A stretch of DNA of 64,000 bases, taken from assembly GCA_022825825.1 (NCBI GenBank), contig JAJDWA010000053.1, forward strand, positions 1 through 64,000, in the 5' to 3' direction. The notes beneath the pieces are model-generated. The model was not told the origin of the DNA. It saw only the letters and a list, made by a program, of their open reading frames with translations, and made no database searches. Made by a program: the position numbers and the translations under genes. Source of the stretch: Candidatus Poribacteria bacterium (GTDB lineage: Bacteria > Poribacteria > WGA-4E > WGA-3G). Every line of letters begins with the position of its first letter. Position 1 is the stretch's first letter. Below, piece by piece: positions 3,639 through 58,819 of the stretch.

Positions 3639-4331
3639 TCTCTATCATTTCCTCCCGTGAACTATAACGCGACTTTGGTAAATCCCGTCCGCTTTCTAAT
3701 CCCGATTTATTGCCCCAAGGTAGGCACGTTTTGGAAACACACCTGTCCCTGTGCTGAAGAGGACTAACGGCGCTTTTAGAAAACGCGCCTACCAGGGGTG
3801 TAGACCGCTAAATTGACGACTATGAGTTCCGCTGCGCTCTACCCAACGGACTATACTTAATCAAATTATCAAACTCACGTTAACACGTTAACTATAAACA
3901 CAATTCTGAAAAATTGCAAGGAAATTCGGAGATTTTATTTCGAAATGTGAATCTTTCGCTCAAAATAGGGCGGTAGAATATGTCGTTCTGCTCCGCGGGT
4001 CTTTTGTAGAAACATTTAATCTGAAAAGGGTAACAAAACCGGGGAAAAGCGGTTATTTACCGAAGAAATTTTAACTAATTTACAACTAAAACAACTGATT
4101 GATACAATCTGATTAAAAGAAAATATGAATGTCGCAAATTCTCCAAAAAATGGTAACAAAATACAAAAAAGTAGCGTTAATTTTTTCAATCAAAATAACA
4201 AGTTGTTTGTACTTATTTGAAGTTGTGCAATATGATTAAGTTTTGAACACCGATCCTAATTTTTAGTGTAACCAACAAGAAACCTTCTAATGTTTCCAAA
4301 AGGTAGAAATTACAGAGCCAGGTGATTGATT
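3639..4331. other. Long intergenic stretch with a palindromic repeat element
   Basis: The first part (about 3690-3830) is a reverse-orientation copy of the repeat that also lies at about 57536-57827. It contains the hairpin GGCGCTTTTAGAAAACGCGCC at 3769-3789 and, at 3732/3733, the undisturbed (empty) counterpart of the site occupied by a 115-bp insertion in the other copy. The rest (3830-4331) is AT-rich and has no convincing gene; an open frame of 31 codons at 4125-4220 has no supporting signal. The promoter of the next gene presumably lies here but I could not pick one out with confidence. Confidence 0.6.
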
Positions 4332-14777: not shown

Positions 14778-16184
14778 ATGAGAAAACGAATAACGATGAA
14801 TACAATAAGCAATTTATCTATTTATAAGAATACTCCAAATTTGGGTTTACAGAAACCGCAATTGCCCAGCGGTACGGTATCAATACGCAATGTCTATATT
14901 GAAACTTATGGATGCCAGATGAACGTCAGTGATAGTGAACTGATGGCAGGTATCTTGACACAATCGGGGCATCGGACTGTTTCCCACATTGATGACGCGG
15001 ATGTAATTTTACTGAATACTTGTGCAATACGAGAGAACGCTGAAACTAAAGTTATCAATCGGCTTGAGCATTTGAATCATCGGAAACGGCGAGAAGGTAA
15101 TCTAATTATTGGGGTTTGTGGATGTATGGCACAACATCTGCGCGACAAACTTTTGAAAGCGGCACCGTATGTTGATCTTGTGATGGGACCTGATGCGTAT
15201 CGCAATCTACCGATGGCGCTCAATGCTGTAGCAAATGGTGATCCTTTTCTCGGTTTACAATTGGATAAAAGTGAGGACTATGCAGACATTGCCCCTATAC
15301 GCAAAGAAGGAATTCGGGCATGGCTCACAATCCAGCGCGGATGCGATAAAATGTGTACCTTCTGTATTGTCCCGTTTGTGAGGGGCAGAGAGCGAAGTCT
15401 ACCGCTGAAACTCCTAACGGATGATGTCCAAAGACTTGTAGATGAGGGGTTCAAAGAGATCGTCCTTCTCGGGCAAACGGTAAACTCTTATCACGATGGT
15501 CAACATGATTTTGGTGAACTATTGTGGTCTATTGCTGAGGTTGATGGTGTGGAACGGGTGCGATTCACTTCGCCTCACCCAGCAGATGCCACGGACAGCA
15601 TGATTGATGCAATGGAAAATTGCCCACAAGTGTGTAAACAACTTCATCTCCCGTTGCAATCTGGGTCAACACCGGTATTAGAACGGATGCGGCGTACCTA
15701 TACAGCTGAAGAATATAATGAACTGGTTTCAAAACTCAGGGAACGTATCCCACAAATTGCACTTTCAACGGATATTATTGTCGGTTTTTGTGGCGAAACT
15801 GAAGCAGATTTTATGCAAACCTATCAACTAATGGCAGATATCCGTTTCGATTCAGCGTTTATGTTTAAATATTCTGACCGAGAAGGCACGTTAGCAAATA
15901 AATCGTTGGAGGACGACGTGCCTGAGTCTGAAAAGGCAAGGCGACTCAATGAGATAATAAAGTTGCAAGAGGAAATATCTGCCAACATCAATCAAGATGC
16001 GATTGGAACTACTGCTTCTGTATTAGTGGAGGGTGATAGTCGACGCGATGCTGAACAATATCACGGTAAGACAGACACATTCAAAACGACAGTTTTTCCA
16101 AAGGAAAATGCTCAGGTTGGTGACATTGTTAATGTTGAAATCCATTCTGCTACAGCGCATACATTGATAGGAGAAATTGTTTGA
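14778..16184 (+). CDS. miaB: tRNA-2-methylthio-N6-dimethylallyladenosine synthase
   Basis: A radical-SAM methylthiotransferase of 468 residues that modifies A37 of tRNAs reading UNN codons. The N-terminal UPF0004 domain starts at YIETYGCQMNVSDSE (Cys46), followed by LLNTCAIRENAETK and GVCGCMAQ, whose cysteines bind the auxiliary cluster. The radical SAM motif is C189-x3-C193-x2-C196 in RGCDKMCTFCIVPFVRGRE. The C-terminal TRAM domain covers about 400-468. Length is normal. A second in-frame ATG lies six codons in (14796), and either could be used. The gene is preceded by an AT-rich leader without a clear promoter. Confidence 0.96.
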   Translation: MRKRITMNTISNLSIYKNTPNLGLQKPQLPSGTVSIRNVYIETYGCQMNVSDSELMAGILTQSGHRTVSHIDDADVILLNTCAIRENAETKVINRLEHLNHRKRREGNLIIGVCGCMAQHLRDKLLKAAPYVDLVMGPDAYRNLPMALNAVANGDPFLGLQLDKSEDYADIAPIRKEGIRAWLTIQRGCDKMCTFCIVPFVRGRERSLPLKLLTDDVQRLVDEGFKEIVLLGQTVNSYHDGQHDFGELLWSIAEVDGVERVRFTSPHPADATDSMIDAMENCPQVCKQLHLPLQSGSTPVLERMRRTYTAEEYNELVSKLRERIPQIALSTDIIVGFCGETEADFMQTYQLMADIRFDSAFMFKYSDREGTLANKSLEDDVPESEKARRLNEIIKLQEEISANINQDAIGTTASVLVEGDSRRDAEQYHGKTDTFKTTVFPKENAQVGDIVNVEIHSATAHTLIGEIV

Positions 16185-16231
16185 TGGAAAATGATTTTCA
16201 GTAAAGACTTTTGGCATAGACGTTACATTTA

Positions 16232-16512
16232 TAGTAAAACCTATAATTATTTGGATACTACTGTATCGCAAACTGTCAGTTTGCGCATCCACGGAAACAC
16301 AAACTAAATGAAGATAAAAAAATAGATTTGGTAATTCCGTAACCATGCCCAGTGCGGTTAGGAAACCGCACCTACCGGGCCTAGGAAAATAAATATTACC
16401 GAATTAATAAATTAATCTTCATACAGTTTGTGCTATCGCATAGGCGGTAGGCGAGGTTTCCTAACCTCGCCGGCACAAATGTCCAAATAATTGTAAAATC
16501 TATCATAATCTA
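16232..16512. repeat. Composite intergenic repeat with imperfect terminal inverted repeats
   Basis: The left end (ATAGTAAAACCTATAATTATTTGGA) and the right end (TCCAAATAATTGTAAAATCTAT) are imperfect inverted copies. Inside lie, in order, a hairpin around TCGCAAACTGTCAGTTTGCG, the 115-bp element at 16308-16422, and the hairpin GGCGAGGTTTCCTAACCTCGCC at 16450-16471. It reads as nested insertions of non-autonomous elements between miaB and map. No gene is present. Confidence 0.65.
16308..16422. mobile_element. 115-bp palindromic MITE-like element, copy A
   Basis: Bounded by ATGAAGAT and ATCTTCAT, with the inverted similarity extending about 28 bp inward to GGTAAT / ATTACC. The centre contains a GTGCGGTTAGGAAACCGCAC hairpin. 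A copy of exactly the same length lies at 57629-57743 with most bases identical. The flanks are themselves inverted repeats (CACAAACT at 16298-16305, AGTTTGTG at 16425-16432), so the element sits at the tip of a hairpin. No coding capacity. Confidence 0.85.
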
Positions 16513-16534: not shown

Positions 16535-17323
16535 ATGCAAAAGATTAAAATAAAAAACAGAGTAGAAATAGAAAAAATGAGGCATAGCGGGCAAGTCGCA
16601 GCAAAAGTCTTGCAGGCGATTGCAAATGCAATTGAACCAGGCATAACGACTTATGAATTAGAAATGGTCTCCCGCAAAACGATTGCTAATCTGAATGCTA
16701 CATCATCATTTTTGAACTACGTAATTCCAGACCACAGTCCTTATCCCGCCACGATCTGTGTCTCTGTGAATAACAAAGTCATTCACGGTATCCCAGATAA
16801 ATCCGAGGAACTCATGGAAGGTGACATTATCGGTGTGGATACCGCTGTGAGCGTTGGCGGCTATCACGGGGATAACGCCTTTACATTTCCGGTAGGAAAA
16901 ATCTCACCCGATGCACAAAAGTTGCTTGATGTGACGAAAGATTCGTTGTATGCTGCAATAGTGGAAGCGAAGCCAGGGAACCGTATGGGTGATGTCTCTT
17001 TCCAATTACAAAACGTTGCTGAAAAGGCAGGGTTCTCCGTAATTGAGAATTTTTCTGGGCACGGTATCGGTCGACACTTACATGAAGAACCGCAAGTGCT
17101 AACTACTGGCAAACCGGGACGTGGTACCCGTTTGCGTCCGGGGATGGTGCTGGCAATTGAGGCAATGGTCAACGCTGGACACTCGAGCGTAGATGTCCTG
17201 GAAGATGGGTGGGGTGTTACGACATCAGATGGCAGTTTGTCTGCCTTTTTTGAGCATACGGTGGCTGTTCTTCCTGACGGTCCTGAGATTTTAACGGGGA
17301 GTCCAATATGGGAAAATCTGTAA
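16535..17323 (+). CDS. map: Methionine aminopeptidase, type I
   Basis: A 262-residue pita-bread-fold metalloprotease that removes the initiator methionine. All five metal ligands are recognisable: Asp in GVDTAVSVGG, Asp in YHGDNAF, His in FSGHGIGRHLHEEP, Glu in AIEAMVNAG and Glu in AFFEHTV. The substrate-side histidine is in TICVSVNNKVIHGIP. Length matches type Ia/Ic enzymes without an extension. The ATG at 16535 follows an AT-rich leader with no Shine-Dalgarno. Its 3' end overlaps ccmC by 16 nt, so the two are probably translated from one mRNA. Confidence 0.96.
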   Translation: MQKIKIKNRVEIEKMRHSGQVAAKVLQAIANAIEPGITTYELEMVSRKTIANLNATSSFLNYVIPDHSPYPATICVSVNNKVIHGIPDKSEELMEGDIIGVDTAVSVGGYHGDNAFTFPVGKISPDAQKLLDVTKDSLYAAIVEAKPGNRMGDVSFQLQNVAEKAGFSVIENFSGHGIGRHLHEEPQVLTTGKPGRGTRLRPGMVLAIEAMVNAGHSSVDVLEDGWGVTTSDGSLSAFFEHTVAVLPDGPEILTGSPIWENL

Positions 17324-33226: not shown

Positions 33227-36200
33227 ATGGTAGACGCGTCAATTGACATTCACGGCGCACGAGAACATAACCTAAAAAATATTGATATCCAACTCCCAAA
33301 AGATAAACTGATAGTTTTCACTGGCGTTAGCGGTTCAGGCAAATCTTCACTTGCAATAGATACGTTGTATGCAGAAGGACAAAGACGATACATAGAATCA
33401 CTTTCCGCTTATGCCCGGCAGTTTTTAGGACAACTTGGTAAAGCAGAAGTAGACAAGATAATCGGTTTGTCCCCCTCCATTGCCATCAATCAAGGTTCCA
33501 CAGGACATAATCCCCGCTCAACGGTTGCGACAGTAACTGAAATTTACGATTATCTCCGTGTTCTATTTGCCCGCGCGGGAGAATTCCACTGTCCTGAATG
33601 TGGACAACAGGTCGGTTCACAAACGATCGCTGATATTGTCTCACATATTTTGAGTTTCCCACCTCGCACGCGCCTCATGATTTTAGCACCTATCGTCCGA
33701 GGTAGACGCGGAGAATATCGGAAAGAGTTATCAGATGCTCGTAAGATGGGCTTCGTTCGCGCCCGAATTGATGGTGAAGTCCACGAAATTAACTCCAATA
33801 TTGCTCTCAACCCGAATCAAACCCATAACATTGATATAATCATTGATAGGATTATCATTAAAGAAAACATCCATAGCCGTGTTGCTGATGCTGTTGAAAC
33901 AGCACTTTCCCTCGGAGATGACACGCTTATTGTCAATGTTATGTCTTCAGAAAGTGATGCTTCACGAAAGAGATCAAAGGATGAGGATTTACTGTTTAGT
34001 AGGCAGTATGCCTGCGCAAACTGCCAAATCAGTTACGATGTGCCTGAACCTCGCCATTTTTCTTACAACAGTCCTTATGGTATGTGTGAACAGTGTCGGG
34101 GATTAGGCGTGCAAATGGCGATTTCTCCGAAGTTAATTATCGCAGATGAAACGCTGTCTATTTTGGAAGGTGCGATAACTCTATGGGAAAAACCTGACCC
34201 TCAAGAAAAGATGGTAGCGCAGTCCCTTGCATCATACCTGAAGTTCAATTTAAAAACCCCGTGGAAAGATCTAAAACCTGAGCAGCAGCATGCGATTCTT
34301 TATGGGACAGGTGATACTGTGCTTACTTTTCGTCAGCCTTCAAAGGATAGTAAGCGGAGAGGGAAACGGTTTCGCGGCAGATTTCATGGGCTGATTCCTG
34401 CGCATGAACAACGGTTTCTTTTTTTAGACGTAAATGAAGAGGGTGATGGGAATTCTCATCTTCCTGACTACTTTGTTAAGATGGAGTGTAGAGAATGCAA
34501 CGGAACCCGTCTAAATCAATTGGTTAAAGCTATCACCTTAGCGGGGCTAAACATTACTGATGTAATGGATATGTCAATTCAGGACGCTACCTCCTTTTTC
34601 AATACCCTTGAACTACCGGATCGCGAGGCTTTTATTGCTTCAGAACTGTTAAAAGAAATTCGCTCACGTTTAGGATTCTTGATGGACGTAGGTTTAGGGT
34701 ATCTAACATTGTCGCGTTCCGCCCCGACATTATCCGGTGGAGAGGCACAACGTATCCGACTTGCGAGCCAAGTTGGTGCCGGGTTACGCGATGTAACTTA
34801 TGTCCTTGATGAACCGAGTATCGGCTTACATCCTCGGGACCATGCTGGTTTATTGAAAACCTTGATGAACCTCCGAAATCAAGGAAATACCGTTATTGTC
34901 GTTGAACATGATGAAGCAACTATGTTGGTGGCAGATTGGATAGTAGACTTCGGTCCTGGTGCTGGTATAAGAGGTGGCGAAATAACTGGTATGGGAACTC
35001 CGAAACAATTGATAGAAGAGAATGACTCACTTACAGCACAATATTTGCGTGGTGAGAAGGAGATTGTCCATCCCGAATCGAGACGTCCCACAGGTGATAA
35101 ATGGGTGCAAATCTGCAACGCGCGGCAAAACAATCTTAAAGAAATTAGCCCGAAAATACCGATTGGGACGCTCTGCTGTGTGACAGGTGTAAGCGGTTCA
35201 GGAAAAAGTTCGCTCATCCACGATATTCTCTACAGTGCGCTTGCACGCGACTTAATGAAGGCAAAAACTGTACCGGGCGACTATGACAAAATTCAGGGTA
35301 TCATCGGAGACGAAACTGTTGCGGTCCCTGATGTTATTGACAAAATTATCAACATTGATATGGCACCTATCGGACGGACTCCTCGTTCTAATCCGGCTAC
35401 GTATACAAAAGTATTTGATGCAATACGAGCCTTCTATACTAACTTACCAGATGCCAAACTGCGTGGATATAAAGCAGGACGATTTAGTTTCAATGTTCCC
35501 GGGGGTAGATGTGAGGCGTGCAACGGCAATGGGGCGAAAAAAGTCGATATGGGCTTGCTTGCGGATGTTTGGGTAGAGTGCGACGTTTGTAACGGAAAAC
35601 GTTATAACAATGAAACGCTCACCATTAAATATAAAGACAAAAATATTTCCGATGTGCTTGAAATGGATATAGAAACTGCACTTGCACATTTTGCTGATCT
35701 GCCCAAAATAGCAAGAGGGTTACAATTGCTTCACGATGTTGGTTTGGATTACATTAAACTTGGACAACCTGCGCCTACACTTTCCGGTGGTGAAGCGCAA
35801 CGGATTAAACTCTCTAAAGAACTTTCAAAACGGAGCACTGGCAAAACACTTTATATCCTTGATGAACCCACAACCGGCTTACACTTTGACGACGTAAACA
35901 AGCTGTTAACTATTCTTCATAGATTGGTTGATGAAGGCAATACTGTAGTGGTTGTTGAGCATAACCTTGAAGTGATCAATTCAGCAGACTACCTGATTGA
36001 TTTAGGACCAGAAGGTGGTGCTGATGGGGGTAAGGTTGTTACTGTGGGGACTCCTGAAGAGGTTGCGGATATGCCTGACTCATATACCGGGAAAGCACTT
36101 CGGGGGGAATACGAACTCTGGAAAACCGAGGACACAAAACAGAACATAGCAGCAAATGGTAATTCCCAAAATCCTCCTTATCAAGGGGATAGGCAGGACG

Positions 36201-38965
36201 ATGTTGATGGAACAGGTTCTGAAGTTTCCAAATCTATTATGGTCCGAGGGGCAAAAGAAAACAATCTTAAAGGTATTGATATTGAAATTCCGCATCAGAG
36301 GCTAACAGCCTTTACAGGTGTGAGCGGGTCTGGAAAGACATCGCTGGCGCTTGATACGATTTATGCTGAAGGGCAACGTCGTTATATTGAGACACTCAGC
36401 ACTTATGCGCGCCAATTTATTGGCACGATGGAGAAACCTAAGGTCTCTAAAATTGAGGGATTGTCGCCAGCGATTGCAATTTCGCATTCAAGTCCAAGCC
36501 AAAATCCGCGTTCTACAGTCGCAACAATTACCGAAATCCACGATGGTTTGCGTACGCTTTATGCGAGATGGGGGCAACCACACTGCCCCGATTGCCAAAC
36601 AGAGGTACTCCCACAGAGCGCGCAGGAAATAGTTGAACATGTTTTCCAACTTTTACGAGAAAAAAGAGTGGATATCCTTTCACCGCTTACGAACTTTCGT
36701 ACGCATGAAAATGATTCTGAGGTGGTAATTGGAGCGGATCGTACCCCTGGTTTGAAAGGGAACGAGGATTACGCTGATGCGTTTCGCAGGTTGCAGAGGA
36801 CAGGTTTTGCACGTGTACAAATTGATGGAGAAATTTACCGCCTCGATGAGGCACCGGAAATTCACAAACGGCGTAGACATGAAGTTTTTCTCGTGATAGA
36901 CCGCGTTCAGCTTGCTGATGATGAAAAAAGCCGTTTCACAGAAGCAGTTGAATTAGCACTTATAGAGAGTAACGGCTTTGTTATTATAGAGGAGAAAAAA
37001 AGTAAAGGCGAACCGAATAGACATTTCTTTAGTGAACATGCGATGTGTTCAAAATGTGGCCGGAATTTTCCGCAGCTAACGCCCCGGCACTTCTCTTTTA
37101 ACAATAGGTTGGGGGCTTGTAGTGCATGTGAAGGGATTGGTAGGCTGCTTTCGGATGGCCAAAAAATCTGTGGAACCTGTAATGGGACAAGGTTAGATGA
37201 ATTTCCGCGCAATGTCAAGTTCTCTGAAGCAACAATCGCTGAATTAATGGCGATGCCAATTTCAGACATCATTATATTTTTTGCCGCACGGATAAACGCT
37301 ATAGAAAAACATCTTACTACGACTGTTGGTGCACAGGAAGCAAAGGCAGCCAGAGACCAAGTGAGAGATGTGTCAACCTCACGGGCAACGCACACGACAC
37401 TCCACTCCCATACTTCGCCTGAGTTTGAGGCCCAACTGCTTCGGCAAATTCAGATTCGCCTTAAGTTTTTAGAGGACATCGGACTCGGTTATCTTGGGTT
37501 AGACCGACCCGCACCGACACTTTCTGGTGGAGAAATCCGCAGAATTCGGCTCGCAAGTCAACTCGGTACAGGTCTAACCGGCGTAACCTACATCCTTGAT
37601 GAACCGAGTATTGGACTACACCCTCGCGACCAGGAACGATTGATTTTAGCGATGAAGGATTTACGCGATATTGGTAATAGCGTCCTCGTCGTTGAACACG
37701 ACAGAGATACTATTTTATCTGCCGACCATATCATTGATTTCGGGCCGAAAGCGGGTAAGCAGGGAGGGAAAATTGTTGCTACTGGCACACCTACCGCCTT
37801 TACCGATTCGGAACCTATCTCCTTCTCTAAACATATCACAAACGACTCAGATGAAGCAACGTCTACTCCCCAGGATAAAGGGTTGACACAAGCATATCTT
37901 TCCGATGAAATGCAAATTCCTGTTCCCGCTGTTCGACGCAAAGGGTCAGGAAAATGGCTAAAGTTATCTGGTGCAAAGACAAACAACCTTAAAAACATTG
38001 ATATCGAAATTCCTTATGGAACGCTTACCTGTGTTACAGGTGTTTCGGGATGTGGAAAGAGTTCGCTTATTGAAGGCACGTTACGTCCCGCTTTGGAAGC
38101 CCGAAAATCTATCAGAAAAGGAAACGAACAATCGGATAATTCTTATGGCGCGGCATTGTATGACAGCGTTCAAGGCACGAGTGCAATCGAACGGATTATC
38201 CACATAGATCAAAAACCGATAGGTGAAACCCCCCGTTCAAACCCTGCGACTTATACTGATCTGTTCACCAAAATTCGAGAAATGTTTGCAGAGTTACCTG
38301 ACGCAAAACTCCGTGGATTTAACCGAGGACGTTTCAGTTTCAATCTTTCCTACGGGCAGTGCGAAGTATGCGATGGACAACGTTTCAATCGAGTAGAGAT
38401 GCACTTCCTTCCTGATGTATGGATACCTTGTGAAAACTGTAACAGCACAGGGTATAATGCTGAAACGCTTGAAGTGCGTTACAAGGGCAAAAATATCGCA
38501 GAGGTATTACAAATGACAGTGCAGGAAGCTCTTGAGCTATTCAGTAACATAAATCGTATAAAACGTCCACTCCAAACGTTAGCAGATGTCGGTTTAGATT
38601 ATATTCAATTAGGCCAAGCTGCAACAACACTCTCTGGAGGTGAAGCGCAGCGCGTTAAACTTGCGAAGGAACTTGCCCGCCGCCAAACTGGTACAACCCT
38701 CTATATTATGGACGAACCGACGACCGGATTGCACTTCGATGATGTCCAAAAACTGCTCAATGTGCTGAATAAACTCGTTGATGCAGGCAATACGATTGTT
38801 GCAATAGAACATAATATAGACGTTATTAAATCAGCAGATTGGGTTATTGATTTAGGGCCTGAAGGAAGCGAGGGGGGCGGTTATCTTGTTGCGATGGGTA
38901 CTCCTGAAGAAGTTGTTGAAGTAGCGGAATCACATACTGCAAGGTTCTTACGCCAAGTGTTGTAA
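33227..38965 (+). CDS. uvrA: Double-length excinuclease ABC subunit A (two fused UvrA units)
   Basis: A 1912-residue protein made of two complete UvrA sequences, about 1-925 and 1010-1912, joined by a hydrophilic linker (QNPPYQGDRQDDVDGTGSE). There are four ATPase sites: Walker A near 33, 653, 1031 and 1605 (the last is GVSGCGKSS), and ABC signatures near 502, 851, 1431 and 1801. Three are LSGGEAQR; the third is LSGGEIRR. All four zinc modules keep paired CxxC motifs. Two UvrA chains normally form the dimer that scans DNA and loads UvrB, so this protein may act as a built-in dimer. Chlamydia has a similarly doubled UvrA. ATG at 33227 follows GAGGG; TATAAT also lies just before it. Confidence 0.95.
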   Translation: MVDASIDIHGAREHNLKNIDIQLPKDKLIVFTGVSGSGKSSLAIDTLYAEGQRRYIESLSAYARQFLGQLGKAEVDKIIGLSPSIAINQGSTGHNPRSTVATVTEIYDYLRVLFARAGEFHCPECGQQVGSQTIADIVSHILSFPPRTRLMILAPIVRGRRGEYRKELSDARKMGFVRARIDGEVHEINSNIALNPNQTHNIDIIIDRIIIKENIHSRVADAVETALSLGDDTLIVNVMSSESDASRKRSKDEDLLFSRQYACANCQISYDVPEPRHFSYNSPYGMCEQCRGLGVQMAISPKLIIADETLSILEGAITLWEKPDPQEKMVAQSLASYLKFNLKTPWKDLKPEQQHAILYGTGDTVLTFRQPSKDSKRRGKRFRGRFHGLIPAHEQRFLFLDVNEEGDGNSHLPDYFVKMECRECNGTRLNQLVKAITLAGLNITDVMDMSIQDATSFFNTLELPDREAFIASELLKEIRSRLGFLMDVGLGYLTLSRSAPTLSGGEAQRIRLASQVGAGLRDVTYVLDEPSIGLHPRDHAGLLKTLMNLRNQGNTVIVVEHDEATMLVADWIVDFGPGAGIRGGEITGMGTPKQLIEENDSLTAQYLRGEKEIVHPESRRPTGDKWVQICNARQNNLKEISPKIPIGTLCCVTGVSGSGKSSLIHDILYSALARDLMKAKTVPGDYDKIQGIIGDETVAVPDVIDKIINIDMAPIGRTPRSNPATYTKVFDAIRAFYTNLPDAKLRGYKAGRFSFNVPGGRCEACNGNGAKKVDMGLLADVWVECDVCNGKRYNNETLTIKYKDKNISDVLEMDIETALAHFADLPKIARGLQLLHDVGLDYIKLGQPAPTLSGGEAQRIKLSKELSKRSTGKTLYILDEPTTGLHFDDVNKLLTILHRLVDEGNTVVVVEHNLEVINSADYLIDLGPEGGADGGKVVTVGTPEEVADMPDSYTGKALRGEYELWKTEDTKQNIAANGNSQNPPYQGDRQDDVDGTGSEVSKSIMVRGAKENNLKGIDIEIPHQRLTAFTGVSGSGKTSLALDTIYAEGQRRYIETLSTYARQFIGTMEKPKVSKIEGLSPAIAISHSSPSQNPRSTVATITEIHDGLRTLYARWGQPHCPDCQTEVLPQSAQEIVEHVFQLLREKRVDILSPLTNFRTHENDSEVVIGADRTPGLKGNEDYADAFRRLQRTGFARVQIDGEIYRLDEAPEIHKRRRHEVFLVIDRVQLADDEKSRFTEAVELALIESNGFVIIEEKKSKGEPNRHFFSEHAMCSKCGRNFPQLTPRHFSFNNRLGACSACEGIGRLLSDGQKICGTCNGTRLDEFPRNVKFSEATIAELMAMPISDIIIFFAARINAIEKHLTTTVGAQEAKAARDQVRDVSTSRATHTTLHSHTSPEFEAQLLRQIQIRLKFLEDIGLGYLGLDRPAPTLSGGEIRRIRLASQLGTGLTGVTYILDEPSIGLHPRDQERLILAMKDLRDIGNSVLVVEHDRDTILSADHIIDFGPKAGKQGGKIVATGTPTAFTDSEPISFSKHITNDSDEATSTPQDKGLTQAYLSDEMQIPVPAVRRKGSGKWLKLSGAKTNNLKNIDIEIPYGTLTCVTGVSGCGKSSLIEGTLRPALEARKSIRKGNEQSDNSYGAALYDSVQGTSAIERIIHIDQKPIGETPRSNPATYTDLFTKIREMFAELPDAKLRGFNRGRFSFNLSYGQCEVCDGQRFNRVEMHFLPDVWIPCENCNSTGYNAETLEVRYKGKNIAEVLQMTVQEALELFSNINRIKRPLQTLADVGLDYIQLGQAATTLSGGEAQRVKLAKELARRQTGTTLYIMDEPTTGLHFDDVQKLLNVLNKLVDAGNTIVAIEHNIDVIKSADWVIDLGPEGSEGGGYLVAMGTPEEVVEVAESHTARFLRQVL

Positions 38966-52400: not shown

Positions 52401-53396
52401 TTATTGCGTCATACCTTCAGCTTGTTTCAACCGACCCCAGAGGGTCGTCTGGGTGTCCACAGTCGGAGAAACGGAAAAAAAACTTTCGGGGACCCATGCG
52501 GGACAAGCATTTAGCCCATTTAGCCCAGTATGTTGTGTGATTTGCTGTGGCTCGCCCCCCTCAACAGAAACGATAAAAATTTGTTTCCCCACATTCGGGT
52601 TTTCCCAAGGATTCGCAATTCCTGCTTCGTAGGCATCGTAGGCAATCCACTTACCATCAGGTGACCACGCAGGATTGTAGCTAAAAGTCCCAGGAGGTGA
52701 CATGAGGCGGGCGTTTTGTCCGTCTGTATCCATGATGTAGATACCAATCCCTCTCTGTATAGCGACAGCACAAGCAATCTGTTTTCCATCAGGAGACCAA
52801 GCAGGCGTAAAAAGAGATCCGCGTACATCTCTCGGGTTTATAATCTGTCTGGGATGTTTTCCATCTGCGTCCATCACAAAGATACCGTGGCCATCATTCC
52901 CAATAGATTTGAAAGCAATTGATTGCCCATCTGGAGACCAGGTTGGGGAGGAACTACCTCCCTGGTTAGTCAGTCTCTGTAGATTCTCACCGTTGATATC
53001 TATTTTGTAGATATGACTTTCCCCTGTTCTCTTGGATACAAAAGCGATCCAATTTCCATCAGGTGACCAGGCAGGAGCATGATCTAACTCCGGATGGTTT
53101 GTCAACCGACGCGCCTGAGCTACATTGAATGTCTTAATATAGATTTCGGAATTTCCATCACGGTCCGACACAAAAGCAAAAGAACGCCCATCTGGTGCCC
53201 ACGTTGTGCAATAGTCATTAGCGGGATGGTTTGTTAGGTTGCGTAGATTCTTGCCGTTTGTATCAATGATGTAGATGTCGCTTTGCCCTGTACGGGTAGA
53301 ATAGAAGGAGATATACGGAGCTCCCCAAGCGTTTACGGCAAGCAGAAAAAGACTGAACAGTAATGTCATTCCAAACAACATATAGGTGCGTTTCAT
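52401..53396 (-). CDS. Secreted TolB-like PD40 beta-propeller
   Basis: A 331-residue exported propeller. The start at 53396 is set by CCAGGAG seven bases upstream; the open frame continues back to 53507 but that part has no ribosome site. A signal peptide (MLFGMTLLFSLFLLAVNAWG) is followed by six or seven PD40 repeats, each with PAWSPDGxxIAF, and DxNGxNLxxLT strands. It resembles the C-terminal domain of TolB. Its first 130 codons are nearly repeated in the truncated copy at 56089-56516, so a duplication flanks the BNR gene. Confidence 0.85.
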   Translation of the reverse strand: MKRTYMLFGMTLLFSLFLLAVNAWGAPYISFYSTRTGQSDIYIIDTNGKNLRNLTNHPANDYCTTWAPDGRSFAFVSDRDGNSEIYIKTFNVAQARRLTNHPELDHAPAWSPDGNWIAFVSKRTGESHIYKIDINGENLQRLTNQGGSSSPTWSPDGQSIAFKSIGNDGHGIFVMDADGKHPRQIINPRDVRGSLFTPAWSPDGKQIACAVAIQRGIGIYIMDTDGQNARLMSPPGTFSYNPAWSPDGKWIAYDAYEAGIANPWENPNVGKQIFIVSVEGGEPQQITQHTGLNGLNACPAWVPESFFSVSPTVDTQTTLWGRLKQAEGMTQ

Positions 53397-53579
53397 TTTT
53401 TTCTCCTGGAAAATTACTATCAAGACCTGCGCACCCAAGCCTAAATAATAAAGTTTGGGTGGCGATACAAGACGTTGGACTATTACTTTACTACAGAAAT
53501 GATTCATAATTAAAAAACAATCTAATGTTTTTTGCTATTTATGAGATACGCTGTAGATTTAATCAACTCAATGCTAAAG

Positions 53580-56066
53580 TTAATTATCAAGCGTAAAGCG
53601 GAGTACCCCGGTTCCATCTGTTCCGACATAAAGCGTACCCTCATCAATAGCAAGACAGGTAACATGATGTGAGATTTTTGGTGTGACCTGCTGCCACGTT
53701 TTCCTCCACGTGCCTCTAATATTGTTCAATTGATATATTTTCTGATCGGATTCACCGTAGACCGTTGTGCCATCCACTGTCAGTTTATTCATAACGAGAG
53801 GTTTCCCTTTTGCATTGGTAATTGTGTGCCAATCAGCACCGTTGCCTGAATGGACTACGCCTTTGTCAGTTGCCACATAAACAGAGTTTCCCGCGAATAC
53901 TATTTCCCTGAAATGGTCTACGGAAAATGGAAGTTTTGCGGTGACATAGTTCCAGGTGTTTCCTCCATCAACAGATCGCATGAGATGACCATCCAATTTC
54001 CCGACGTAAACAGTACTTCCCAAAACAGCAAGTTTAAAACCGGTATCTTTAGAATTATCACCTTCATCTAATATGCCCGTGTCCGACCATTCAGCTATGC
54101 TTGGTTCCAATTTGAAGAGTTTGTGCATGTATTCCACATAGTACGTTCCGTCGTTAACAGCAAAACTTCCAAGCATTGAAGTATAAAGACTAACATTTCT
54201 GCGTGTCACAGATGATATAGATTTCCTATGAGTAGTATTCATTTCACGCAATTCTTCCATTGCTTTGTGTGGGTCATATACATTAAAGGCGGGTACTTTA
54301 GAAGCGTCAATGAGTCTATTATCTTTGGTAGATAAAAAGTAAAACCGAGGTATCCCGATTTTATCGTCTCTCACATATAGTTGCCCATTAGATTGCGCAA
54401 TACGTGTGATATAACCAGTATCACCTGGAACAGGTGTCCACGATTCTCCACCATCAGTTGAACTGAGAACTCCACCATGCGTATGCGCGTAGAGGATACC
54501 GTTAACAGCAATCAATTCCTGGACATAAGTATTTACGAATCCAGTATTAAATTGATGCCATGATTCTCCGCCATCTGTGGTGCGGTAAATTCCGAATTTT
54601 CCAGATACATAGAAAGTATTCTCATTTAACGATGCCAAACCAGAAGTATCACCTATATTAGCCGTTTTGTCTGAGGTTCTCCAAGTTTCACCTGCATTGA
54701 TAGAATAGAAGTATTCCTCACCGTCAATTAATATCACCTTTTCCTCCGCTGCAGACATTTTGAAGGTTGTATTCACTCGTGTTGCAAAGGGAACATCGTC
54801 TTCATTCTTGCGTGGTGGAAATATATTGGAGATTTTTGGCTTTTCCCCTGTTTTCTTTTCTATATTGTTGCTATCTGGCGTAATAGTTTTCCATGAATTG
54901 CCTATGTCATCTGAACGAAAGATTGACCACACGAATCGTTTTAGCGGCTTAATTCCCATTCTTGACCTCGGAGAATCAATTCTTATGCTTGATATACCGA
55001 AATTTTCATAGAATGGATCATAATCTCCATATATATATTTCCTTGTTACAACATATAGACGGTCATCTGTAACTGACATTGCAATAATAGGTAGCGTGTT
55101 TTCTTTCGTATCTGCTTGAGCGATGGACAATTGTTCCCATTTATCAGCGTTAAGACGATAAAGCCCTTTGTCAGTACCGACAAAAACAGTTTTTCCTACA
55201 TTAGTGATTACGCCAATTTGTCTATCGTTGATACCTTCGGGCAATGGTGTCCATGAATTGCCCGCGTTTTCTGATCGAAATACGCCTTTCTTGTAAGCAA
55301 GGTGGATTGCCATCTTGCTTACAGATCCTGGATTACTTCCTGTTATCACCATCCCAACAAGTTCACCTTTTATACACTCACAAAATTCTTTCCATGTCGC
55401 GCCTCTATCTGTAGAAGCAAAAATCTGTGTATCAAGAGCACGGTAGAGCGTATTCTGCCACTCTGCTAAATGCTGAAATACATTCCTTTTTGTTGCTATA
55501 TCACGCCAGGACTGTTTGACAGCGTTTATGAGTTTCCACGACTGGCCATTATCTGTGAGTCTGTAGAGACCGTTTTTTGCCGTTGCATACACGTCACCAC
55601 GGTTTGTTGTGAATAAGGTAGTAACTCTACCACCCTCTGGTCCTTTGGGATCACTCCATCGTCGTTTCGATTTTGAAATTTCTATGTCATCTATCTGTGC
55701 TGCAGCGAACAGTGGCGCGTCCGGTTTTTGCCCTATTCCTTCGGGACTACCAGTTACATCAGATTTCCCGACTTGAGTCCGCACTGCTGGTTTTGCTGGC
55801 GTGTCAATCACGAGTTGTGTGTCTGTTATCTCAATTGTCGGTTCTGATTGTGCGTTTAAGCTGTACGGTTTCTGAAAACGATTTAAGTATTGCATCCCAG
55901 CACCCATCAGCAATAAGATTAAAGCTGCAGCGGTGGCAGAAACTGCTATCGGCACTAATGGTTTGCTGTTAGCAGGTGTTATCGGATTGAGACGTGAAAT
56001 CTCTTTCATGATGTTTTTTGCCGTCTGTGTCGGCAGTTGAAAACTGCTAAGGTTTTCTTTAATCAT
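53580..56066 (-). CDS. Membrane-anchored BNR / Asp-box propeller protein
   Basis: An 828-residue protein. The start at 56066 follows AAGGAGG by five bases. The first 45 residues (FQLPTQTAKNIMKEISRLNP) are cytoplasmic and resemble the end of an anti-sigma or sigma-like regulator in this lineage, then comes one membrane helix (about 46-63, VPIAVSATAAALILLLMGAG), a linker and a large exported part. At least six Asp-box motifs are seen (STDRGATW, SENAGNSW, SINAGETW, TTDGGESW, SVDGGNTW), the VPS10/sortilin-type BNR propeller. No sigma factor gene adjoins. It may sense or bind ligands and signal inward; that is inference. Confidence 0.78.
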   Translation of the reverse strand: MIKENLSSFQLPTQTAKNIMKEISRLNPITPANSKPLVPIAVSATAAALILLLMGAGMQYLNRFQKPYSLNAQSEPTIEITDTQLVIDTPAKPAVRTQVGKSDVTGSPEGIGQKPDAPLFAAAQIDDIEISKSKRRWSDPKGPEGGRVTTLFTTNRGDVYATAKNGLYRLTDNGQSWKLINAVKQSWRDIATKRNVFQHLAEWQNTLYRALDTQIFASTDRGATWKEFCECIKGELVGMVITGSNPGSVSKMAIHLAYKKGVFRSENAGNSWTPLPEGINDRQIGVITNVGKTVFVGTDKGLYRLNADKWEQLSIAQADTKENTLPIIAMSVTDDRLYVVTRKYIYGDYDPFYENFGISSIRIDSPRSRMGIKPLKRFVWSIFRSDDIGNSWKTITPDSNNIEKKTGEKPKISNIFPPRKNEDDVPFATRVNTTFKMSAAEEKVILIDGEEYFYSINAGETWRTSDKTANIGDTSGLASLNENTFYVSGKFGIYRTTDGGESWHQFNTGFVNTYVQELIAVNGILYAHTHGGVLSSTDGGESWTPVPGDTGYITRIAQSNGQLYVRDDKIGIPRFYFLSTKDNRLIDASKVPAFNVYDPHKAMEELREMNTTHRKSISSVTRRNVSLYTSMLGSFAVNDGTYYVEYMHKLFKLEPSIAEWSDTGILDEGDNSKDTGFKLAVLGSTVYVGKLDGHLMRSVDGGNTWNYVTAKLPFSVDHFREIVFAGNSVYVATDKGVVHSGNGADWHTITNAKGKPLVMNKLTVDGTTVYGESDQKIYQLNNIRGTWRKTWQQVTPKISHHVTCLAIDEGTLYVGTDGTGVLRFTLDN

Positions 56067-56088
56067 TGCTTCCTCCTTTTTCAATCGG

Positions 56089-56516
56089 TTACGGGCTTAG
56101 ATTCTTGCCGTTGATATCTATTTTGTAGATATGATGTCCATCTGGTCTTTGGGATATAAAAGCAATCCAATTTCCATCAGGTGACCAGGCTGGGTCAGAA
56201 TCGGCCCCCTCCGGATGGTTTGTCAACCGACGCACCTGAGCTTCATTGAATGTCTTAATATAGATTTCGAAAGCTCCATCACGGTTCGACCTAAAAGCAA
56301 AAGAACGCCCATCTGGTGCCCACGTTGCGGAATAGTCTCCTGCGGGATGGTTTGTTAGGTTGCGTAGATTCTTGCCGTTTGTATCAATAATGTAGATGTC
56401 ACTTTGCCCTGTACGGTTAGAATAGAAGGAGATATACGAAGCCCCCCAAGCGTTTACGGCAAGCACAATAAGACTGAACAGGAATGTCATTCCAAAAAAC
56501 ATATAGGTGCGTTCAT
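56089..56516 (-). pseudogene. Truncated, frameshifted copy of the PD40 propeller gene
   Basis: It repeats the first 130 codons of the gene at 52401-53396 with high identity, including the ribosome site (CTCCTGG on the plus strand). At the start codon one A is missing (ATGAACGC against ATGAAACGC), which shifts the frame into TGA nine codons on. A frame can restart at the internal ATG at 56502, but the gene ends at KNLSP after three repeats, right before the ribosome site of the BNR gene. It is probably decayed after a duplication; a short exported product is possible if the internal ATG is used. Confidence 0.75.
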
Positions 56517-56698: not shown

Positions 56699-57370
56699 CT
56701 ACACTTCAGTTCTATAACTTAAAATTATACCATCATCCAAAGGAATGTCAACAGAATTTAATAGTGGCGTGTTAAAGACAAATTCGACATAATCTAACAT
56801 CTCATCGCGCATTGTCACGGTATCATCAGCCACGATTAAACCGCCCGAACGAATGTTGGGTAATGTTAATTCAAGATAATGCAGATATTCATCTTTCTGT
56901 GCGTCAAGGAATACAAGATCAAAAATGGCATCACACTTTAGAATTTCATCAAGTGCGTTTCCAACCCGTATTTCAACAATATCGTCTAATTTAACTTCTT
57001 TGAGATGTGCTTGTGCCTCAGCTGCACGTTTTGAATCGAATTCAAGGGTAATAAGTTTGCCTCCTGTTTCTTTTAGCGCAGCAGCAAGCCAAATTGTGGA
57101 GTAACCATTACTTGTCCCGACTTCAAGAACGTTTTGTGCCTGAATAGCGCGGATGAGGATAGAAAGAAATTCTCCGTTTTCGGGGGCGATATTTGTATAT
57201 TGTTTCGCTGTTTTTTCAAGCCGTTTTAAAATAGATTGGTAATCTTTCATCATATCAAGGTGGTTCATAGTGTTATTAAAACTATTTAAATTGAGGCTGT
57301 GCATAATTGAATTTAGCCAGAATATAGGTGGACTCTTATCTAAAAATAAAACAAAAGGAGTATTAACCAT
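56699..57370 (-). CDS. SAM-dependent O-methyltransferase (class I, COMT-like)
   Basis: A 223-residue enzyme with the SAM-binding motif VLEVGTSNGYSTIWLAAAL (about 77-95), the acidic ribose ligand in LITLEFDSKRA, and FDLVFLDAQKDEYLHYLE, the metal-binding Asp segment of the catechol O-methyltransferase group, with VADDTVT after it. The N-terminal 35 residues are an unusual hydrophobic extension. The ATG at 57370 is preceded by CAGGA at seven bases and by a promoter at 57391-57419, which supports the long form. The methyl acceptor is unknown. Confidence 0.85.
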   Translation of the reverse strand: MVNTPFVLFLDKSPPIFWLNSIMHSLNLNSFNNTMNHLDMMKDYQSILKRLEKTAKQYTNIAPENGEFLSILIRAIQAQNVLEVGTSNGYSTIWLAAALKETGGKLITLEFDSKRAAEAQAHLKEVKLDDIVEIRVGNALDEILKCDAIFDLVFLDAQKDEYLHYLELTLPNIRSGGLIVADDTVTMRDEMLDYVEFVFNTPLLNSVDIPLDDGIILSYRTEV

Positions 57371-57515: not shown

Positions 57516-57846
57516 GCGGTGAGGTAACCTCGCCGCTTATGTGTCAACTTAGCGGCCCACACCCCTGGTAGGCGCGTTTTCTAAACGCGCCGTTGGCTAA
57601 TCTTCAGCACAGAGACAGGCGCGTTTCCATGAAGATTAAGAAAATATTTCGGTAATTTCATAATTATATCCAGTGCGGTTAGGAAACCGCACCTACCGGG
57701 CCTGGGAAAATAAATATTACCAGATTAATAAATTAATCTTCATCAAAACGCGCCTACCTTGGGATCCTAAATCGGACTTAGAAGGTTTCCCTCCAACAAG
57801 ATGATGGCCCCTTAAGTTGACAGTCATGAGGCGAGGTTACCTCGCC
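57516..57846. mobile_element. Composite palindromic element carrying the 115-bp insertion
   Basis: An outer unit bounded by TGTCAACTTA (about 57541) and TTAAGTTGACAGTCATGA (57812-57829), the same ends as at 44292-44451. It contains the hairpin GGCGCGTTTTCTAAACGCGCC (about 57573-57593) and is a near copy, in opposite orientation, of 3690-3826. Between GGCGCGTTTCC and CAAAACGCGCC lies the 115-bp element (57629-57743). Hairpins GCGGTGAGGT/ACCTCGCCGC (57516-57536) and GGCGAGGTTACCTCGCC (57830-57846) adjoin both ends. No gene lies between 57371 and 58039. Confidence 0.8.
57629..57743. mobile_element. 115-bp palindromic MITE-like element, copy B
   Basis: Same length and ends (ATGAAGAT...ATCTTCAT) as 16308-16422, with the same central GTGCGGTTAGGAAACCGCAC hairpin. 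It interrupts a repeat whose uninterrupted form is visible at 3715-3750 on the other strand. GTTTCC|AAAACG there becomes GTTTCC-element-C-AAAACG here, so the insertion is precise and duplicates at most one base. Confidence 0.88.
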
Positions 57847-58039: not shown

Positions 58040-58819
58040 ATGTTTTCTATAAAATGGTATTGTATTCTTTCATGTATTAGCCTTCTTTTTTTCGGGCTTA
58101 ACACATGTTTCGCGGCAGGTGGATTTGAATACCTTCCTGACAACAACACCCTCGGACTCTGGCATTTCAATGAAGCCAAGGTTGAAGATGTGTCAAACAA
58201 CAATGTGGAGGCAAAAGTTGAAGGAAAAGCAGCATGGGATCCAAACCAAGATTGGAATAAAGCAAACGAAGCAGGAAAGTCGTTTCGTTTTGATGGGAAC
58301 ACAGTGATTTCTCTTGGAAAAACGAAGGAGCTTATACCTGAAGTTGCTATTACCGTGGAAGCCTGGGTTTACCCTGAAGATTTAACCGGATGGCGACTTA
58401 TATGTGCTAATTGGGATGGTCCGCCAGGTGCATACCACTTAGGTGTTTCAAATGCTATGCCCAAATTCCACATTAATACGACAAATGGAAGCGCTTCCGC
58501 TGAACCAGCAGAAACACTTAAATTGAAGCAGTGGTACCACATCGCTGGCACTTATGACTCCAACGCAGTTAAACTTTATATCAATGGTAAAGAGGCGGCA
58601 TCAAAGAACCATGGCGGCAAACTGAAAGGCGCCGACTACGACGTAGTCATTGGGAGTAAGAATACGCGCCAATTTAAATGGATAGGTTTAATCGACGAAG
58701 TACGGATAAGCGATATTGCCCGCGAAGCCGACGCGCTTAGTCCTAATTTCGATAAACCACAAGCGGTTGAATTCACTGAACTGACCTTACCACTTTTATG
58801 GGGTAGCCTTAAGCGATGA
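58040..58819 (+). CDS. Secreted LamG-domain protein, second copy
   Basis: A 259-residue exported protein. The signal peptide (ILSCISLLFFGLNTCFAAGG) is followed by a LamG sandwich: LGLWHFNEAKVEDVSNNNVE, SFRFDGNTVISLG, ITVEAWVYPEDLTGWRLI, WYHIAGTYDSNAVKLYINGK and IDEVRISDIAREADAL. The C-terminus ends LPLLWGSLKR; the 262-residue LamG protein ends in a similar IWGKIK. It shares a four-base ATGA overlap with the cyclase-like gene, so translation is coupled. Likely binds carbohydrate on the cell surface. Confidence 0.82.
   Translation: MFSIKWYCILSCISLLFFGLNTCFAAGGFEYLPDNNTLGLWHFNEAKVEDVSNNNVEAKVEGKAAWDPNQDWNKANEAGKSFRFDGNTVISLGKTKELIPEVAITVEAWVYPEDLTGWRLICANWDGPPGAYHLGVSNAMPKFHINTTNGSASAEPAETLKLKQWYHIAGTYDSNAVKLYINGKEAASKNHGGKLKGADYDVVIGSKNTRQFKWIGLIDEVRISDIAREADALSPNFDKPQAVEFTELTLPLLWGSLKR

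Follow-up and report, generated by a model that had tools for sequence, protein, structure and literature searches.

In the 64,000-nucleotide stretch of Candidatus Poribacteria DNA analysed here (the window), a 115-bp element occurs twice, each time between the two arms of another inverted repeat, and the arms differ between the two copies. This raises the question of whether the element chooses hairpins as its insertion targets and which kind of enzyme moves it. A preliminary description reported inverted repeats of 8-9 bp around both copies, proposed that hairpin loops are the targets, and suggested an HUH Y1 transposase of the REP-associated type. We find the inverted repeats where it placed them, with the arms standing two bases off the element (Table 1). 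The source genome is 5.1 Mb in size and 84% complete, and the window lies on its contig 29.

Table 1. Coordinates, within the window, of the two copies, their target hairpins and the element-free counterpart of copy B.
Feature	Position	Strand	Remarks
Target-hairpin left arm, copy A	16298..16305	+	CACAAACT
Copy A of the MITE	16308..16422	+	ends ATGAAG...CTTCAT are imperfect inverted repeats; GTAG foot on the inner hairpin
Target-hairpin right arm, copy A	16425..16432	+	AGTTTGTG
Target-hairpin left arm, copy B	57618..57626	+	GGCGCGTTT
Copy B of the 115-bp MITE	57629..57743	+	
Target-hairpin right arm, copy B	57746..57754	+	AAACGCGCC
Element-free paralogue of copy B neighbourhood	3694..3818	-	limits approximate

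The two copies are 86% alike. The termini of the element are imperfect inverted repeats of about 28 bp (ATGAAGATTAA...GGTAAT), and its centre holds a second hairpin with a GTAG foot. In both copies the arms of the target hairpin stop short of the element and leave a two-base gap per side, with unpaired spacer bases AA (left) and AC (right) in copy A and CC (left) and CA (right) in copy B. These spacers would be explained by an original loop AAC whose middle A was doubled (16307 and 16423) in copy A, and by an original loop CCA whose middle C was doubled (57628 and 57744) in copy B. Copy A lies between ORFs at 14778-16184 and 16535-17323, which from sequence motifs we take to be miaB and a methionine aminopeptidase gene, and copy B lies in a long intergenic stretch with ORFs at 56699-57370 (-) and 58040-58819 (+) on either side. 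An Rfam search of the window matched no family.

Both copies have other repeats around them. A larger palindrome at 16228-16509 (TATAGTAAAACCTATAATTATTTGGATA ... TGTCCAAATAATTGTAAAATCTATCATAA) encloses copy A and neighbouring hairpins. The miaB-map gap is just 81-92 bp in two related genomes (G002 and G017), which argues that the whole stack at 16228-16509 arrived as nested insertions; as the entire nested stack is absent there, this orthologous gap was rejected as an empty site for copy A. A composite repeat occurs at 3766-3817 and again, inverted and 92% complementary, at 57543-57594, about 54 kb away; the element lies near only one of the two. Elsewhere in the window there are large imperfect inverted repeats at its start (48-357, with arms of 114 nt and 76 nt), four 42-nt repeats at 34799-38743, which presumably code for ABC ATPase motifs of the LDEP type and may mark two neighbouring UvrA-like genes, and two adjacent repeat pairs at 52980-56508, 92% and 84% alike and about 3.1 kb apart, which are at least partly coding (ORF 56089-56502). 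We also observed small hairpins with GTTGATT at one edge (e.g. GGGGAATGCCTAAATGGCATTCATACCGTTGATTT) inserted within the element and within other repeats (C54:19623-19773, L018, L019, L030), and these presumably resemble IS200/IS605-derived palindromic elements. Y1_Tnp matches occur at four loci of the genome (L031, L032, L033, L034); one has an internal stop, and the ORFs at L031 and L032 are 209 and 159 aa long.

When up to two mismatches were allowed, the end pattern of the element had 88 matches in its own genome and the reversed control had 0. The 115-bp element was matched in 43 of the 59 genomes searched, its own genome included, and all 43 belong to one order.

To count flank symmetry over many copies, as the preliminary description had proposed, we scored 96 near-complete copies, 23 from the window's own genome and 73 from relatives. 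The copies in the own genome were those with both ends at most 400 bp apart plus copy A, with single-ended matches left out; the relatives were sampled as 60 copies from among the matches listed, not every listed one, and 16 accompanying loci, and three copies (L150, L157, L168) were dropped because of contig ends. Copies were picked by alignment span and distance to contig ends, blind to the flanks. The flanks were then read as hairpin arms over 8 positions, with 0-4 unpaired bases permitted per side. At least 6 of the 8 positions are paired in 83/96 copies, compared with 8.6% of random sites (20,000 trials in the same DNA), and at least 7 of 8 in 69/96, compared with 1.4%. A second control, in which flanks were mis-paired between copies, reached 17.6% and 8.8% at these two thresholds. 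The stem-bearing copies have 42 distinct stem tips among the 83 of them, which bears out the proposal that hairpin loops are targets, independently of their sequence, although copies with a common stem family may not be independent insertions.

By far the commonest register is two unpaired bases per side (52 of 69 copies). With the register fixed, 76% of copies have the same base on both sides at position 1, just 24% are complementary at position 2, and 72-91% are so at positions 3-9. Copies A and B each score 7/8 in this fixed-register test, where 7/8 was reached by 0.07% and 8/8 by 0.005% of 100,000 random sites.

Copies at sites lacking any symmetry had been named in the preliminary description as the observation that would speak against hairpin targeting. 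They exist but are the minority, as 13 of the 96 copies show no flank symmetry (C12, C19:96816, C62, C67, L130, L148, L154, L164, L176, L179, L097, L103, L118), and in our reading of the listed flanks at least seven of these (C12, C62, C67, L097, L103, L154, L176) retain on one side the half of a known palindrome and look as if they had been rearranged. At C62:1909-2023, L154 and L097, the left flank belongs to one palindrome family and the right flank to another, which could reflect recombination between copies.

We sought joined flanks for 7 copies in two close species (G008 and G014) and for another 10 in a second genus, represented by 15 genomes. For 5 of the 17, the site is found uninterrupted in a different species (L136, L104, L106, L118, L156). 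The empty site of L136 is 95% identical and one base shorter, the missing base being the duplicated G; those of L104 and L106 are also one base shorter and that of L118 is two bases shorter, while at L156 a poly-A run makes the duplication unreadable. A sixth pair of sites before and after insertion comes from the L171 site, which is filled in both species. There, G008 has a second copy inside the inner hairpin of the element, GCGCGCTTACAAAGCGCGC, with the middle C duplicated, and its sister species G014 has the uninterrupted version; this nested copy is L273 (G008 C152). A hairpin is clear at the insertion point before insertion in five of the six cases (L136, the nested site, L156, L104 and L106) and weak in L118.

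The remaining copies searched are less informative. For L101 and L117 the only counterparts are paralogues, both shorter by one base, and the one for L117 has no hairpin at the insertion point; the L164 site in G008 was rejected as a pair because it is not clean, and 8 of the 17 copies had no usable counterpart (L125, L130, L147, L149, L172, L178, L163, L111). Synteny is broken around copy B, so the paralogue in the window alone was used for it. This paralogue is the copy B neighbourhood lacking the element, and its junction is one base shorter. The same stem family is thus seen both with and without the element, and where sites are readable, the target hairpin usually predates the insertion.

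The empty sites also indicate how many bases are duplicated, and this depends on the loop. There are 75 copies whose stem is in the two-base register, and for 73 of them a search of the analysed DNA found that stem elsewhere with a short native loop closing it. In 49 of the 73 the fit is exact, meaning that the first two bases of the loop are the left junction pair and the last two the right pair, whereas shuffling the junction bases among copies gave a mean of 13.5 fits and a maximum of 23 in 1000 shuffles. The exact fits comprise 40 three-base loops with one duplicated base and 9 four-base loops with zero duplication, although 4 of these 9 are compatible with a three-base loop too. The other 24 of the 73 testable copies have no exact native-loop match. 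By these fits, the target duplication equals 4 minus the loop length. L118, in which AA is duplicated and the predicted fold is weak with a four-base loop, would in our reading fit a two-base loop closed by a T.G pair, with a duplication of +2. The full-length element L192 has the junction TA-element-AT, and the native loops of its stem include TAAAT; it would match a five-base loop minus one base (-1), but its native loop may also have been TAAT.

The enzyme was found through the ends of the element. In a genome that consists of a single contig (G009), the same ends recur in pairs with a spacing of about 1.23 kb and enclose 382-aa ORFs, intact in L183 (571-1719) and L182 and broken in L180 and L181. 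The 115-bp copies and the 1.23-kb elements have common ends, as is expected of a MITE and its partner, and the partner was found in relatives only: the window's own 84%-complete genome has no match to its transposase. The encoded protein passes the cut-off of the NCBIfam IS630 model NF033545 (E 1.3e-42, 146 bits, cut-off 100), matches PF13358 DDE_3 (51.5 bits, cut-off 28.6) and has HTH domains. D190, D272 and E332, which we take to be the catalytic triad, are invariant across 8 aligned relatives. A PDB sequence search found no relative, the single match being meaningless (E 0.59), and a predicted structure has a mean pLDDT of 58.

This transposase was matched in 19 of the 59 genomes; ten matches are essentially full length at 58-100% identity, one of them with an internal stop. 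Related transposases are found in Candidatus Poribacteria and more distant ones in Chloroflexota. Six of the eight scorable full-length Poribacteria elements clearly lie in hairpins (L188, L189, L190, L192, L193, L196); the hairpin of L207 is marginal and out of register, and L191 has none. Two elements (L194, L195) were excluded from scoring because their second end is unreadable. Among the Chloroflexota relatives with both ends, L230 and L237 are in hairpins and L229 is not. With six of eight and two of three elements in hairpins, this clade of transposases seems to be the one associated with hairpin targeting. A more distant IS630-like locus, L202, has flanks that are not palindromic, and the element ends of three others (L200, L201, L204) are uncertain. 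The TA duplication of IS630-type elements is absent from these sites, where the junction bases vary and one middle base or none is duplicated.

Based on these observations, we believe, with a probability of roughly 0.8, that the 115-bp element is a non-autonomous MITE moved in trans by an IS630-family DDE transposase (Tc1/mariner superfamily) that would select hairpins by their shape. From the common ends and the common target behaviour, we infer that this enzyme is the one likely to act on the MITE. The attack is probably on a cruciform: the target palindrome would be extruded, one transposon end would attack in each of the two facing loops, at a point two bases 5' of the stem's 3' arm, and gap filling would leave a duplication of 4 bases less the loop length. 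Under normal DDE polarity, this two-base geometry would give N1N2-element-N2N3 in a three-base loop and N1N2-element-N3N4 in a four-base loop. Where a three-base loop gains a base, sequence from both target strands is needed, since a single-stranded hairpin could not template the extra base; this favours attack on a two-strand cruciform over single-strand HUH insertion. The element and its inner repeat are hairpins themselves and so would be new targets, which would give rise to nested palindromes such as the copy within a copy at L273.

We lean slightly toward a broader account, which is drawn from comparing sequences. An IS630-lineage transposase would have swapped TA recognition for extruded cruciforms, using the stem as a ruler and joining the ends two bases away from it, so that the duplication would be 4 minus the loop length (2: +2, 3: +1, 4: 0, 5: -1) and not a constant of the enzyme. 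The use of its own hairpin products as targets would then drive self-nesting palindromes genome-wide.

Several other explanations have to be weighed against hairpin selection by an IS630-family enzyme. The REP-associated Y1/HUH transposase of the preliminary description, or one of the IS200/IS605 type, would insert a single-stranded element into hairpins. There are four Y1_Tnp matches in the genome, and many of the target hairpins have a GTAG foot like that of REPs, which the available part of PMC2817692 gives as a hallmark of these repeats. However, the autonomous elements that share these ends carry a gene for an IS630 DDE enzyme, a one-base duplication needs both strands, and the Y1 matches are on other contigs, with no Y1 gene seen together with these ends when the end pattern was followed genome-wide. 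The attribution to such an enzyme was not borne out, and we give it scarcely any credence. We would also be surprised if the transposase were reading specific palindromic sequences, as IS1397, ISPsy8 or ISRm22 do with REP-like targets, with structure being irrelevant. Many targets do come from a few abundant repeat families (CACAAACT, GGCGCGTTT, GTCCC), but the 42 stem tips include AT-rich ones at L156 (GGATTTTTT) and L106 (GGTTTTTC), where the hairpin was there before insertion.

The symmetry could instead have arisen after insertion, if template-switch repair or gene conversion had extended the element's own inverted repeat outwards. Such repair predicts junctions that are paired perfectly past the loop, and five copies have them (C21, C52:156061, C73, C75, L145; TG-element-CA and the like). 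But the hairpin is already in the empty L136, nested, L156, L104 and L106 sites and in the paralogue of copy B, so we assign this explanation next to no weight for the symmetry in general; it may apply to the perfect junctions only, which could have been corrected later by template switching. It is very unlikely, too, that the element and its surrounding hairpin spread as a composite after a single original insertion per family. The CACAAACT and GGCGCG families do recur alongside the element, and some copies may have spread in this way, but the 42 stem tips, the occurrence of one stem family with and without the element, and the separate insertion events between species refute it as a general account.

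If an IS630-family transposase does select hairpins, this superfamily, known for strict TA targeting, would include a natural transposon guided by the shape of DNA and not by its sequence. Its insertions would then document which palindromes are extruded into cruciforms inside living cells, something that has long been asked and is difficult to test. Strand transfer would be tied to target geometry in a new way if the loop sets the length of the duplication. Hairpin targeting would also help to account for the abundant palindromes within palindromes in these sponge-symbiont genomes, and none of the papers listed in searches of an open-licence library deals with nested palindromes in Poribacteria. 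Nor does any of them report an IS630 element that targets hairpins, although searches of this range do not establish priority.

Some features of the element are familiar from known systems. The RAG recombinase of vertebrates, a DDE enzyme, prefers hairpin or distorted targets in a laboratory reaction. The likeness to our elements lies in the DDE chemistry and the hairpin preference, and the difference is that here the pattern comes from insertions in natural genomes. For Tc1/mariner and IS630 elements the insertion site is TA (NTAN for IS630), which is duplicated, according to the available parts of PMC5481204 and PMC5678879. Our elements are like them in belonging to the NF033545/DDE_3 family, in their length of about 1.2 kb, in their terminal inverted repeats and in having MITE derivatives, but they differ in that there is no TA and any base, or none, is duplicated.

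The REP-targeting ISs insert in palindromic repeats, on the symmetry axis or close to it, and in the available text of PMC1525189 each IS has one conserved REP sequence and a fixed duplication, of 3 bp for ISPsy8 and 6 bp for ISRm22. Insertion at the axis is common to both systems, while here the targets have 42 different stem tips and the duplication varies with the loop. IS1272, of the IS1182 family, transposes by replacing a stem-loop: in the portion of PMC5678879 available, its targets are inverted repeats of varying sequence and size, and its insertion removes the target stem-loop without duplication. It is like our elements in being of DDE type and in having inverted-repeat targets that differ in sequence, and pathway c of that paper, untested there, in which the attack is at cruciform loops, is close to the pattern described here. 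It is unlike them in that here both arms are kept, a three-base loop has its middle base doubled and the transposase family is IS630; at L136, L104, L106 and L118 the filled site is longer in joined length than the empty one, which is not what stem-loop replacement produces. The nearest precedents are IS1272 and the REP-targeting ISs, and a structure-targeting variant of IS630, placed in that family by its transposase, would be new.
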